Below, piece after piece: positions 1,121-5,101 of a stretch of 5,101 bases of DNA. Origin of the DNA: Candidatus Zhuqueibacterota bacterium (lineage in GTDB: Bacteria; SM23-31); NCBI GenBank assembly GCA_022562855.1, contig JADFON010000100.1:1662-6762 (forward strand), given 5' to 3'. Position 1 is the first letter of the stretch. Each line of letters opens with the position of its first letter. Both the position numbers and the translations under genes were made by a program. Under the pieces are notes generated by a model. That model had not been told where the DNA came from and ran no database searches. It worked only from the letters and a program-made list of their open reading frames with translations.

Positions 1121-1909
1121 ATGAATTTTCCTTTTGCTTTCATATTGGCTTCCCTTTCGGGTCTCTATACTTCTCTCTGGGGCGCTTTTAAAGATTCTCC
1201 ATATGAAGGTTTTAAACCCGGAACTTTTCCAAGAAGCGTCTATTTTAGCGCGGTGTTTTTTCTGGTTCTCTTTGCACTACCTTTTTACAGGGAAAGACTG
1301 GTTGGTTTACACTATTTTCACATTTTTTTCCTCATGATGGGTATGGAAAGAATTATCGCCGAAATTTATAAAGGATTCTTTCGAACAGAAGACCAGGATA
1401 AGTATTTTGTTCCTTCCCGGATAACGTTTCTTGGAAAATTCGTTGCAAGTGATTTACTCAGGTACAGCGTAGGCGCTGTAATAATTATCGGCACTTTTTC
1501 CGTACTGTTAATCGACTTCAAAATCTCAACGCAAATTGAATTTCTTATAGTCTCTTATGGAGCAGGGTTGCTTGTATCGATGGGGGGCGCTTATAAAGAC
1601 GCGCCGTTTGAAGGATTTAGTTATTTGAAATTCCAAAAGTCTCCGCTGGTTTTGAGCAGTACTTTTCTGCTTTTTTATTATCTTGGTGAAGTTTCTCTTG
1701 GTTTACTGATCTGCATGAACATAGGTCTGGAAAGGTTTATGGTAGAGTATTACAAAACGTTCATCGAAAGAGATATGTCAGGAAAATTCAGACCTGACCT
1801 GAAAAGGATTCAACATTACCTCGATATAAGAGAAAAATTCCATTATGGCGCTTTGGTGATCATAGCCGGGCTAATCGCTCTTTATATTTATGAATCAAGA
1901 TCGATATGA
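1121..1909 (+). CDS. internally duplicated polytopic membrane protein of unknown family
   Basis: This 262-residue protein is very hydrophobic, with about eight candidate membrane segments (near residues 4-20, 38-56, 61-78, 110-132, 137-157, 173-190, 191-207 and 241-258). I do not recognise the family. It is clearly made of two halves. GLYTSLWGAFKDSPYEGF at 14-31 matches GLLVSMGGAYKDAPFEGF at 149-166. GMERIIAEIYKGFF at 74-87 matches GLERFMVEYYKTFI at 202-215. Shared residues define two motifs, G-A-[FY]-K-D-x-P-[YF]-E-G-F and G-x-E-R-x-x-x-E-x-Y-K-x-F, present once per half. Conserved charged residues beside membrane segments suggest a catalytic or binding role rather than a simple anchor. The start is firm: an in-frame stop at 1112-1114 precedes the only nearby ATG, although no Shine-Dalgarno sequence is visible. 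The gene end overlaps the GMC oxidoreductase start by 20 bases (1890-1909), so the two are probably co-transcribed and translationally coupled. It could be the membrane partner, transporter or lipid-modifying enzyme of the pathway. Its function is not assigned. Confidence 0.85.
   Translation: MNFPFAFILASLSGLYTSLWGAFKDSPYEGFKPGTFPRSVYFSAVFFLVLFALPFYRERLVGLHYFHIFFLMMGMERIIAEIYKGFFRTEDQDKYFVPSRITFLGKFVASDLLRYSVGAVIIIGTFSVLLIDFKISTQIEFLIVSYGAGLLVSMGGAYKDAPFEGFSYLKFQKSPLVLSSTFLLFYYLGEVSLGLLICMNIGLERFMVEYYKTFIERDMSGKFRPDLKRIQHYLDIREKFHYGALVIIAGLIALYIYESRSI
1160..1423 (+). repeat. first half-repeat of the duplicated membrane protein (protein level)
   Basis: Residues 14-101 carry the GAFKDSPYEGF motif, two candidate membrane segments, and then the GMERIIAEIYKGFF motif followed by a charged KYFVPSRI tail. 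The unit matches residues 149-230 with an offset of 135 at the first motif and 128 at the second, a 7-residue difference that implies a small indel between the halves. The match is visible in protein. I did not see extended nucleotide identity, so the duplication appears old. Confidence 0.8.
1565..1810 (+). repeat. second half-repeat of the duplicated membrane protein (protein level)
   Basis: Residues 149-230 carry GAYKDAPFEGF (155-165 within the longer match), two candidate membrane segments, and GLERFMVEYYKTFI followed by a charged KFRPDLKRI tail. The counterparts in the first half are at 14-101. Further matches flank the first motif: F31/F166, F36/F171 and S39/S174 occur at a constant offset. 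Confidence 0.8.
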
Positions 1910-3413
1910 TGTGATAATTATCGGATCGGGTTTTGGGGGAGCTGCCGCCGCTTATTCCCTGGCGAAGACCGGACTGAATACTCTTCTCCTCGAAAAAGGT
2001 AACTGGGTAAAGCGGGATGAAACTGCGTGGAATCCGAAGGATATTTTCATAAATAAACACTACAAAAGTTATGCGCCTGTTTACGTCAATCAGAATAATA
2101 ACGGTACACAGGAGGTCTATTTTAACGAGGTTGTTGGCGGAAATTCTATTTTTTTCGGAGGCGTTGCCCTGCGATTTCGCGAAACCGACTTCGAGAGGTG
2201 GCCCATATCTTATATGGACCTGGAGCCATATTATTCGGAAGCCGAAAGGCTTCTTGAAGTATCCGGGGAACCTGGTCTCGATCCTTTTGAACCTTACCGT
2301 TCAAGTGATTATTTCTACAATGATCTCCCGATGTCAGAACCGTCACGAAGAATTTTTTCCGCATCGAGAGCGCTTGGATTCAAACCCTTTAAGCTTCCTC
2401 TTGCAATAAATTTCAGGAATAATTCCAAGACTCTCTGTATAAAATGTAATACCTGCGACGGATTTCCCTGTAAGATCAAGGCAAAAAATGACGTAACAAC
2501 TACACTTTTGAAAAGGGCTCAGGAATACAAACTCAAAATTACTACCGGCTCTATTGTAAAAAATATCTCGGATGATAACGGAACGATTGAGTCGGTTACC
2601 GTAGTAGATAAACAAACCGGAAAAGAGTACCGGTATTCATCGAAAATAGTAATTTTGAGCGCCGGGGCTTTACAAAGCCCGGGAATTCTTCTGAGATCAA
2701 ATCTCGATAAATATCCACAAAGAGAATTTATCGGAAAATACCTTATGCGGCATTGCAGTGCGGTGGTAAGCGGAATATTTCCATTCAAAACCAACCCCGA
2801 TAAAGTATTCCATAAACATGTTGGAATAACAAATTTCTATGAGGATTTTCGGAACGTAACAAACACATCGGTAGGAATGATTCAGGATGTTTATATGCCG
2901 GAGGGAGAAACGGTAAAATATTATTGCCCAAAAGGCATTAAAACGCTTGCAGCGTTTTTTGCCGGTAATATTCAAAATCTCATGTGTATCGGTGAGGATG
3001 ATCCTGTAAAAAGTAACGCCGTATCACTTTCGGGGATAAGAGATTCTTTTGGAATTGAGACTATTAAAATTGATCATGATTTTACGAAAAACGATTACAA
3101 ACGAAGGAAATACCTTATAGGCAAAGCAAAAATAATACTGCGAAAGACAGGAAGTATATTTTCATTTTCCCATGGAATAGATGAACACATTCCCCCTGCA
3201 TTTGCCCACGCCACAGGAACGGTACGATTCGGAAAAAGCCCGGAAACAAGCGTGCTCGATAAGAACTGCAAATTTTTTGGAATAAAAAACCTGTTTGTCC
3301 TTGACGGAAGTTTTATGCCGTCATCCGGTGGAGTAAATCCCAGCCTCACGATTACGGCAAATTCGCTGAGAGTTTCGGATCATATCGTCAAAAACTTCGA
3401 TGAATTCCAATAA
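1890..3413 (+). CDS. GMC-family FAD-dependent oxidoreductase (alcohol/sugar dehydrogenase type)
   Basis: This 507-residue protein has the usual GMC length and probably oxidises an alcohol or sugar hydroxyl to a carbonyl with FAD. The N-terminal Rossmann fold is at 7-37: DVIIIGSGFGG with the dinucleotide-binding glycines 12, 14 and 17, and Glu35 ending the second strand (LLLEKG). GGNSIFFGG (83-91) followed by RFRETDFERWP is the flavin-contacting GMC segment, and DLEPYYSEAE (110-119) is also typical. AGALQSPGILLRS (258-270) is the second GMC signature. The C-terminal domain has HATGTVRFG (440-448) and DGSFMPSSGGVNPSLT (472-487); His440 and Asn483 correspond to the catalytic His/Asn pair. A cysteine cluster C183-x2-C186-x2-C189-x4-C194 sits in the middle. 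No signal peptide or membrane segment is seen, so it is likely cytoplasmic or membrane-associated through its neighbour. It overlaps the gene before it by 20 bases and the one after by 14, with no Shine-Dalgarno at its start, pointing to translational coupling. The substrate is unknown. Confidence 0.92.
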   Translation: MNQDRYDVIIIGSGFGGAAAAYSLAKTGLNTLLLEKGNWVKRDETAWNPKDIFINKHYKSYAPVYVNQNNNGTQEVYFNEVVGGNSIFFGGVALRFRETDFERWPISYMDLEPYYSEAERLLEVSGEPGLDPFEPYRSSDYFYNDLPMSEPSRRIFSASRALGFKPFKLPLAINFRNNSKTLCIKCNTCDGFPCKIKAKNDVTTTLLKRAQEYKLKITTGSIVKNISDDNGTIESVTVVDKQTGKEYRYSSKIVILSAGALQSPGILLRSNLDKYPQREFIGKYLMRHCSAVVSGIFPFKTNPDKVFHKHVGITNFYEDFRNVTNTSVGMIQDVYMPEGETVKYYCPKGIKTLAAFFAGNIQNLMCIGEDDPVKSNAVSLSGIRDSFGIETIKIDHDFTKNDYKRRKYLIGKAKIILRKTGSIFSFSHGIDEHIPPAFAHATGTVRFGKSPETSVLDKNCKFFGIKNLFVLDGSFMPSSGGVNPSLTITANSLRVSDHIVKNFDEFQ

Positions 3414-4362
3414 ACCAAACATTTGTATTGTTGGCGGCGGCGGAATCGGCGCAGTACACGCCCGAAACCTGTCACCCTACGCCAATCTCTATTTTTTCAA
3501 TCCCACAATCAAGAAAGCAGAAACATTTAATCTTAAATTTGACGGCAGCGGAACATTCGATTCATTCGAGAAAATACTCGAAGCCGATAGTATTGACGCC
3601 TTGTTGATAGCTTCACCTCCCCAGTTTCATAAACAGCAAGTGATAGACGGTTTAAAAGCTGAAAAACACATACTCGTTGAGAAACCATTATGCATAAACC
3701 GTGAAGAGTTGGAAGATATTGAACAGGCGGTTGCAGACGCCGGGTCAACCCCGAAAAGAAAAGGGCAGACTGTATTTATGGTTGCGGAGAATTATTATTA
3801 TAAACCATCGCTCATTAAAATAAAGGAAATAATTAGGTCTGGAGTAATCGGAGATATAAAATCTGTCCATGCACGCAAAGAGTTTATGCAGCCTGCATAC
3901 AATTGGAAAAGAAATTATGGCGCTTTGCTTGAAGGCGGAATCCATTTTATAGCGCTGATATCGGGAATAATTGAAGAAACACCAATACATGTCGAAGCCG
4001 ATTTTCCAGGTCTGCAACCGGGGACACAGGAAAGGGCGTCTGTTGTTTTCCTTAATTACAAAAATGGTGTTAATGCAACACTCAATTACGCCTGGAACAA
4101 GAGGAGTTTGACCAAAGGATTATTTCAACATTCGGTTATCAGAGGGACAAAAGCGAATCTGATATTCGAGAGCAATGGGCTGTACATCATTGCTCCCGGG
4201 ATCAAAAAGCTGACCTTTCCGGGATTTTCCGATATAACCGGTCATAAAGCTATGGCTGTGGATTTTTTGTCCTGTATCAGCGAAAGAAAACAACCCTTTT
4301 CTGATTTTGAAAAAGCAAAGCGGGATTTGGAAATAGTATTCGGGGCGTATGATACAATGTAA
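3400..4362 (+). CDS. Gfo/Idh/MocA-family NAD(P)-dependent oxidoreductase
   Basis: This 320-residue protein belongs to the family of glucose-fructose oxidoreductase and inositol dehydrogenase, which interconverts a hydroxyl and a ketone on sugars, sugar nucleotides or cyclitols. The N-terminal Rossmann domain begins ICIVGGGGIGAVHARNL (8-24), continues DALLIASPPQFH (66-77), and ends with the EKPL signature at 94-97, Lys95 being the usual catalytic/cofactor lysine. The C-terminal alpha/beta domain includes ENYYYKPSL (130-138) and LLEGGIHFI (176-184), where His182 aligns with the catalytic histidine. The usual D-x-x-x-H aspartate is glutamate here (Glu178). The protein ends soon after DLEIVFGAYDTM, a normal end for the family, and is on the short side. 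The ATG at 3400 lies inside the end of the GMC gene (14-base overlap) without an evident ribosome binding site, so translation is probably coupled. Pairing with a flavin oxidase suggests a two-step oxidation/reduction on one substrate (inference). Confidence 0.92.
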   Translation: MNSNKPNICIVGGGGIGAVHARNLSPYANLYFFNPTIKKAETFNLKFDGSGTFDSFEKILEADSIDALLIASPPQFHKQQVIDGLKAEKHILVEKPLCINREELEDIEQAVADAGSTPKRKGQTVFMVAENYYYKPSLIKIKEIIRSGVIGDIKSVHARKEFMQPAYNWKRNYGALLEGGIHFIALISGIIEETPIHVEADFPGLQPGTQERASVVFLNYKNGVNATLNYAWNKRSLTKGLFQHSVIRGTKANLIFESNGLYIIAPGIKKLTFPGFSDITGHKAMAVDFLSCISERKQPFSDFEKAKRDLEIVFGAYDTM

Positions 4363-4366
4363 ATGA

Positions 4367-4399
4367 TCTGCAGGCGGACGACCTGATTGGGTTTTTATT
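4367..4399 (+). terminator. weak candidate terminator between convergent genes
   Basis: The 32-base gap between the two convergent stop codons contains CAGG and CCTG arms around a 7-base loop (about 4370-4384), followed by GGGTTTTT and further T-rich sequence from 4389. The stem is only four bases and separated from the T-run by several bases, so this is a poor intrinsic terminator and may have no function. Confidence 0.2.
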
Positions 4400-5101
4400 G
4401 TTTCTCTTTAAGTATGTAAGGTTCGAAAATTTTCGGCATAAGAATTTTATGGTTAATCCAATATGCTATAACTACATATACTGCCGCAATCATTAAATCG
4501 ATTATATAGTGATGGTTAAGATAAACGGCTGCCCAGCCAACCAATAGGGGATAGAGTATAACAAACGTATGATATTTCTTGAATTTCAAGTAAACAAACA
4601 ATGAAATTATAATCGGATAACCACCATGAAGAGAAGGAATCGCAGCAAAATGATTCGGGTTGAAATTATCCCACAAATTGGAAAATAACTTCATCTTTAT
4701 CATATTATCGATATTGATCAGTGAACCGGCTGTTCCGAGGTAACTGCCTGACGGCTGGTCGAATCCGTCTCTGAGAACGTACCACGGCGGAGCAGCCGGC
4801 AAGATGAAAAATGTGATCAACGCCATAGCATTCAATATCGTAAGCGTCCAGACAAATCTGTAAAACATTTTTCGGTCGTTTTGCGTATGCCAGAGAATCC
4901 ATCCAAAGAGCATTGGACCGTAAAAGTGAAAACTGTACAAATTTGCGGCAATCAGGTCAATCGCTTTTTTCCAGAGATGGGCGTCATAAATATAGTGAAA
5001 CCGTTGAAATACATAAGACGGAATTTCGTTTCCGAATAATTTTCCAAAGATCGCGAATTCAGCGTCATAAATTTCCCTGACATAAACATACCCCCTCCAG
5101 C
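4395..5101 (-). CDS. PAP2_3 / Aur1-like membrane phosphatase or phosphotransferase (5' end outside window)
   Basis: The minus-strand frame is open from the right edge to the stop at 4397-4395, giving 234 full codons of an incomplete protein. A TTG at 4940 is not the true start: the 53 codons upstream of it encode family-like sequence (for example the segment from EIYDAEFAIFGKLFG to HLWKKAIDLIAANLYSF). Numbering from the first full codon at 5099, PAAPPW is at 101-106, NHFAAIPSLHGGYP at 149-162 and LNHHYIIDL at 194-202. PSLH and HHYIID are the second and third phosphatase motifs of the PAP2 superfamily, with the transition-state and nucleophilic histidines present. The PAAPPW plus PSLHGGYP pattern is that of the Aur1/inositolphosphotransferase-like branch. 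Several hydrophobic segments indicate a polytopic membrane protein. Family members move or remove phosphate head groups on lipids or polyprenyl phosphates. It converges on the oxidoreductase unit with a 32-base gap. The exact substrate is unknown. Confidence 0.88.
   Translation of the reverse strand, partial: WRGYVYVREIYDAEFAIFGKLFGNEIPSYVFQRFHYIYDAHLWKKAIDLIAANLYSFHFYGPMLFGWILWHTQNDRKMFYRFVWTLTILNAMALITFFILPAAPPWYVLRDGFDQPSGSYLGTAGSLINIDNMIKMKLFSNLWDNFNPNHFAAIPSLHGGYPIIISLFVYLKFKKYHTFVILYPLLVGWAAVYLNHHYIIDLMIAAVYVVIAYWINHKILMPKIFEPYILKEKQ

Follow-up and report, generated by a model that had tools for sequence, protein, structure and literature searches.

In flavoenzymes of the FAD glucose dehydrogenase type, a 3Fe-4S cluster takes over the electrons from FAD and hands them on to a cytochrome c subunit (PMC9727119). 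Loci that deal with membrane lipids have been described separately, among them the HpnM/HpnN loci for hopanoid export and the Bacteroides inositol-lipid cluster BT_1522-BT_1526 (PMC9246714). The locus analysed here and its counterparts in other genomes have likenesses to these, and the locus encodes, directly in front of a flavoenzyme, an eight-helix membrane protein that we call MEM.

The window, i.e., the whole stretch of 5,101 nucleotides that was analysed, comes from a Candidatus Zhuqueibacterota bacterium (contig JADFON010000100.1, positions 1,662 to 6,762). A ten-N assembly gap lies just before its start (G000:C106:1652-1661), and the frame at 1-205 on the reverse strand, which crosses this gap into a bacterial sugar transferase, may be a scaffolding artefact. 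A stand-alone cyclic-nucleotide-binding domain protein is encoded at 452-955 on the forward strand, 165 nt upstream of MEM; no relative of it turned up at the other loci.

MEM is made of two homologous halves

MEM (1121..1909, + strand, ATG start) is a protein of 262 residues with eight predicted membrane segments, according to the open reading frame call, the hydropathy, and the structural models. The comparison of half against half delimits a first half (residues 1-135, TM1-TM4; 1121..1525, +) and a second (residues 136-262, TM5-TM8; 1526..1906, +), the latter being the nearer to an archaeal single-unit protein described below. The original prediction had claimed from shared motifs that the protein is built of two halves, and their homology is borne out by several tests. 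The halves are 33% identical over 83 residues (BLASTP of half versus half, E 1e-9), the profiles of the two match each other with a probability of 98.4 and an E of 8e-15 (hhalign), and their local alignment score of 105 exceeds the maxima of shuffled controls, which were 59 for plain shuffling (n=2000) and 79 when the hydrophobic pattern was kept (n=2000). Chance is excluded as an explanation of the internal repeat. The alignment of the halves stops near residue 95/223, so the demonstrated repeat comprises TM1-TM3 of each half; a repetition of TM4 and TM8 is not demonstrable.

All four motif copies lie at the residues where they had been predicted. Motif A closes the first helix of each half and runs into the following cytoplasmic loop: copy 1 (GLYTSLWGAFKDSPYEGF, residues 14-31; 1160..1213, +) at the end of TM1 and copy 2 (GLLVSMGGAYKDAPFEGF, residues 149-166; 1565..1618, +) at the end of TM5. 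Motif B lies within the cytoplasmic half of the third helix, at its cytoplasmic end, with copy 1 (GMERIIAEIYKGFF, residues 74-87; 1340..1381, +) in TM3 and copy 2 (GLERFMVEYYKTFI, residues 202-215; 1724..1765, +) in TM7. Far from varying freely, every charged motif residue of both halves is invariant among 39 homologues. The positions kept in 39/39 of them are, in the first half, K24, D25, P27, and E29 of motif A, F36, P37, R38, S39, then G74, E76, R77, E81, Y83, and K84 of motif B, R88, D91, and R114; in the second half, they are G155-F166 (every residue of this part of motif A), K170, F171, S174, then G202, E204, R205, E209, Y210, Y211, and K212 of motif B, G221-F223, R237, and H241. Nearly all of these positions survive when two further myxococcal homologues are added, H241 being among the losses. 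Each half had been proposed to retain a working site: the part of this proposal that concerns the keeping of charged residues in both halves holds across the 39 homologues, and a catalytic site in each half is not established.

The distribution of positive charges indicates how the protein sits in the membrane. In the 39 homologues, the mean number of lysines and arginines is 4.0, 4.8, 3.7, and 7.6 in the loops after TM1, TM3, TM5, and TM7, respectively, and 0.1-0.5 in the remaining internal loops. The positive-inside rule thus places the motif loops in the cytoplasm and both ends of the protein outside. Hydropathy, this charge pattern, and the models agree on what had been expected of the topology, i.e., roughly four segments per half and two halves in the same orientation. 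The AlphaFold2 model made with 39 sequences has a pLDDT of 87.7 and a pTM of 0.88, the other of the two models a pLDDT of 82.

Searches for known families and folds

The search of MEM against Pfam gave nothing above the cut-off. The top match was HRG (PF16954), with an E of 3.4 and 8.5 bits, and we rejected an identity with this haem transporter at a score below the 27-bit threshold. MEM had no match in NCBIfam, in PHROGs, or among PDB sequences, and three distant homologues had no Pfam family above the cut-off. These results accord with the first reading of the sequence, which had matched the protein to no known domain; no characterised family emerged that explains both motifs. KDxPxEGF presumably resembles the KKTWEGF motif of CdsA-type cytidylyltransferases, and motif B presumably resembles EXPERA proteins. 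We take both resemblances as leads only, and the Pfam search returned neither an EXPERA nor a CdsA match.

Comparing the two models with the PDB by Foldseek gave nothing at E 1e-3 (best E 0.23), and VIA-align gave a Z of at most 4.0 (reported best row with Z 3.9, rmsd 4.9, and 112 residues aligned). Matches to DPAGT1/MraY and to oligosaccharyltransferase recurred but were weak, the TM-score being about 0.2 or the rmsd about 5 A, and we discarded them. Such negative results fall short of proving that the fold is new. We did not find the protein family described in the literature, and it appears to be undescribed.

A GMC oxidoreductase accompanies MEM in two phyla

The gene of MEM overlaps by 20 nt (1890-1909) that of a GMC oxidoreductase of 507 residues (GMC; 1890..3413, +), which makes the predicted co-translation of the two plausible. 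GMC has no signal peptide, its Rossmann motif begins at residue 7, and its nearest solved relatives are the large subunits of FAD glucose dehydrogenase and fructose dehydrogenase. A loop with four cysteines (C183, C186, C189, C194; 2436..2471, +), invariant in 42 sequences, aligns with the Cys-rich loop CCGNNNCMPIC of FAD glucose dehydrogenase. The GMC gene overlaps in turn by 14 nt (3400-3413) that of a Gfo/Idh/MocA dehydrogenase of 320 residues (GFO; 3400..4362, +), and a GFO gene follows GMC in 27 of the 35 loci with enough downstream sequence. GFO retains the EKP and GGIH motifs of its superfamily. It is nearest to inositol dehydrogenase-type proteins, the closest NCBIfam model being inositol 2-dehydrogenase with a score far below the model cut-off; glycoside 3-dehydrogenases are among its weak NCBIfam matches.

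Our survey comprises 49 distinct MEM loci, 46 outside Myxococcota and 3 within. At every one of the 46 non-myxococcal loci, a GMC gene on the same strand lies immediately downstream of MEM. The original prediction had asked whether homologues sit next to GMC enzymes, and the answer is that one GMC oxidoreductase is invariably linked to MEM in two phyla. The presence of this GMC subfamily was tested in 31 genomes: it is found in six of six operon-bearing genomes and is absent from 23 of the 24 genomes lacking MEM. In the sole exception (G328), GFO comes after a fragment of GMC that lies at the edge of a contig, and MEM may thus simply be missing from the assembly. The three myxococcal MEM homologues have no such GMC neighbour; one myxococcal genome (G007) encodes MEM without the GMC subfamily, and the genomes G352 and G353 encode only distant GMC enzymes. 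The GMC subfamily, wherever present, accompanies MEM, and MEM can do without GMC. These myxococcal homologues, together with an archaeal relative that has no oxidoreductase nearby, imply that the core role of the family is wider than serving GMC, and its gene neighbours point to polar-lipid or inositol chemistry. A membership of MEM in a redox pathway, which had been considered in the original prediction, is not established.

Lipid-related genes in the neighbourhood

A sufficient stretch upstream of MEM is available for 34 loci, and in 16 of these MEM is directly preceded on the same strand by a fusion of an NTP-transferase and a CDP-alcohol phosphotransferase, an HpnM-like gene, and an HpnN-like gene, in that order, and an outer-membrane efflux gene mostly precedes this set. 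The best NCBIfam model of the fusion is inositol-1-phosphate cytidylyltransferase/DIPP synthase (IPCT/DIPPS; E 5e-76, 256 bits versus a cut-off of 580). Since this model is the best and yet the score falls below its cut-off, a specificity for inositol is likely, not certain. The Latescibacterota loci with such a fusion beside HpnM/HpnN-like genes (fusion at L002:1049-2650 and L010:1156-2625) possibly represent an undescribed type of inositol-lipid export locus. In a genome of the window's class (G003), the gene just after that of a myo-inositol-1-phosphate synthase encodes a similar fusion. Roughly half of the loci, among them that of the window, lack IPCT and HpnN genes beside MEM. Two IPCT-type fusions are encoded elsewhere in the genome from which the window comes; a search of this incomplete genome for HpnN-like genes at E 1e-30 found none. 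In 2 of the 3 myxococcal loci, an HpnN-like gene is adjacent to or near MEM, with GT4 glycosyltransferases. Convergent with the MEM operon, the window encodes a PAP2_3 protein (4395-5099, - strand) that resembles phosphoinositol dihydroceramide synthase (NF052609, E 3e-28, below cut-off).

A hopanoid or sterol substrate was considered because of the HpnN/HpnM-like neighbours and of a weak cholesterol-oxidase score of GMC. It was ruled out: squalene-hopene cyclase was found in none of 20 genomes (the control, B. subtilis, was positive), and the HpnN-like exporter is therefore unlikely to serve hopanoids there. Myo-inositol-1-phosphate synthase is present in 17/17 tested genomes with MEM, but relatives without MEM have it at a similar frequency (10 of 12), so its presence is not a specific test.

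At several Latescibacterota loci, MEM is also adjoined by a divergent xylose-isomerase-like TIM-barrel gene (L041:10194-11105, checked with Pfam; L009:4985-5848; and similar cases).

Distribution and a single-unit relative in Archaea

The MEM family occurs in 2 of the 6 genomes of the window's phylum, in 44 of the 64 Latescibacterota genomes searched, and in Myxococcota at a frequency of 1/282 in a spread sample and 3/14 in one order. The roughly 60 residues invariant across homologues, the presence in more than two thirds of the Latescibacterota genomes searched, and the exceptionless linkage to the flavoenzyme there indicate that the family is under strong selection. Viral contigs and phage records yielded no relative. 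A tblastn search of plasmid records led to an archaeal relative of 103 residues, TNaP3-14 (AGX15328.1), encoded on plasmid pTN3 of Thermococcus nautili (KF527230.1:7871-8182; L108:4001-4312) and flanked by genes of coiled-coil proteins and by MazE/MazF-like genes. The pTN3 class of plasmids is related to viruses and carries genes for a capsid protein and a packaging ATPase (PMC5495485).

TNaP3-14 is 40% identical to the second half of MEM and 34% to the first, reaches an hhalign probability of 98.3, and retains the core G-A-x-K-D-x-P-x-E-G-F, F-x2-S, and G-x-E-R-x3-E-x-Y-K. In contrast to MEM, it consists of one unit with three hydrophobic segments, two of them weak, and it is carried by an archaeal virus-like plasmid. 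On pTN3, no enzyme of lipid or sugar metabolism and no oxidoreductase was found near it. As TNaP3-14 is a single unit of the MEM family, the bacterial MEM is a fused duplicate. We infer that the ancestral unit had three helices and dimerised in parallel, and that TM4 of the fusion holds the second unit in the same orientation. The archaeal plasmid copy is the main unexplained fact and sits uneasily both with a role of MEM in a lipid pathway and with one as electron acceptor.

Discussion

We tentatively favour the possibility that MEM belongs, as a membrane component, to a pathway for polar lipids, probably of the inositol type, whose lipid is tailored by the GMC-GFO pair. MEM would be a membrane-embedded pseudo-dimer of an ancestral three-helix unit of ~100 residues, and each unit might form one cytoplasm-facing polar pocket from KDxPxEGF at the end of its first helix, F-x2-S, and GxERxxxExYK at the end of its third. 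The fourth helix of each half permits a co-oriented fusion of three-helix units, so that both pockets would open to the cytoplasm. What MEM may bind or process there would be the head group of a polar membrane lipid, with the phospho-inositol type as the likeliest. In the two operon-bearing phyla, the co-translated soluble flavoenzyme GMC would dock with GFO onto MEM, which would present them the lipid, and the two enzymes might oxidise and then re-reduce one of its ring hydroxyls. Where HpnM/HpnN homologues are adjacent, the product could be exported towards the outer membrane. This reading is the best supported because the constant elements are the MEM unit with its cytoplasmic charged motifs and, in Bacteria, recurrent polar head-group enzymes and HpnN-type exporters, with GMC and GFO added in two phyla. 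Against it count the fact that no MEM homologue has a known function and the position of the archaeal relative between toxin-antitoxin-like genes rather than in a lipid locus.

The main rival, which ranks next and which we find rather doubtful, holds that MEM anchors a new GMC-type dehydrogenase in the membrane and is its electron-accepting subunit on the quinone side. Electrons would flow from FAD through an iron-sulfur cluster in the four-cysteine loop to a quinone in MEM, which would replace the cytochrome c subunit of FAD glucose dehydrogenase. Such a subunit would be expected to co-occur obligately with GMC and to have its gene translationally coupled to that of GMC, as is the case for MEM; the conserved surface of MEM faces the cytoplasm, and GMC is closest to the 3Fe-4S dehydrogenases (PMC9727119), with four invariant cysteines at that position. 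However, the cluster of GMC is itself putative, and no haem or metal site can be discerned in MEM: its (nearly) invariant residues include no cysteine, and one histidine at most is strongly conserved among them. Moreover, the myxococcal members lack this GMC and the archaeal unit has no oxidoreductase nearby. The unusually strict invariance of acidic and basic residues would also suit an enzyme, e.g., a head-group transferase or a lipid kinase, with charged motifs catalytic in each half and GMC and GFO acting at later steps. The IPCT/CDP-alcohol phosphotransferase fusion and, in Myxococcota, the GT4 glycosyltransferases would be fitting neighbours, but MEM matches no transferase family or fold and has no classical metal-binding DxxD-type motif, and we regard this option as quite improbable.

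We give even less credence to the operon being a sugar-oxidation module of the 3-keto-glycoside type, rather than a lipid module, with MEM as an accessory membrane protein. Such chemistry typically involves GMC and Gfo/Idh/MocA enzymes, glycoside 3-dehydrogenases score weakly against GFO in NCBIfam, and the xylose-isomerase-like gene stands beside several loci; yet GMC lacks a signal peptide, neither a cytochrome or small-subunit gene nor a sugar importer was seen, and about half of the loci have HpnN/IPCT neighbours instead. We consider it least probable that MEM transports or flips a small polar molecule or a lipid. The eight helices in two halves and the linked exporters are compatible with it, whereas the conserved residues are gathered on one face of the membrane, the loops on the other being short, uncharged, and unconserved, and the halves are parallel, not inverted, and match no transporter fold.

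A more ambitious form of the polar-lipid reading, which we consider unlikely, is that MEM is the first of a new family of membrane proteins, also new in fold and common to an archaeal virus-like plasmid and several bacterial phyla, whose three-helix unit acts in parallel pairs; the fused pair of Bacteria and its co-translated iron-sulfur GMC would constitute a new kind of oxidoreductase for membrane lipids, remodelling a head group of the inositol type prior to export. If MEM serves an inositol-type lipid pathway, it would point to an undescribed membrane lipid in phyla of which most knowledge comes from metagenomes. The single-unit relative from Archaea is a small protein from a genetically workable genus and lends itself to structure determination and mutagenesis.

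Comparison with known systems

As its function is one that we infer, we class the system with known redox-tailoring and lipid-export loci, as a variant of them. It resembles the FAD glucose and fructose dehydrogenase complexes in that these contain the nearest solved relatives of GMC and have their Cys-rich loop in the same place; the spacing of the four cysteines of GMC differs from that in FAD glucose dehydrogenase, and cluster binding by GMC is putative. Besides the large subunit, those complexes comprise a multihaem cytochrome c and a small subunit of the Tat hitch-hiker kind (PMC9727119), whereas genes for neither were found in the MEM operon at the loci examined, which has only MEM. Its likeness to the HpnM/HpnN hopanoid export loci lies in the HpnM- and HpnN-like genes that immediately precede MEM in about half of the cases; unlike in those, the scores of these genes fall far below the equivalog cut-offs, an IPCT/DIPPS-like gene is found instead, and the tested genomes have no hopene cyclase. 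As for the Bacteroides cluster BT_1522-BT_1526, the sections of PMC9246714 that describe it list no GMC, Gfo/Idh/MocA, or MEM-like gene; what it has in common with the locus described here is the inositol-lipid theme, and the window gene at 4395-5099 resembles its phosphoinositol dihydroceramide synthase.
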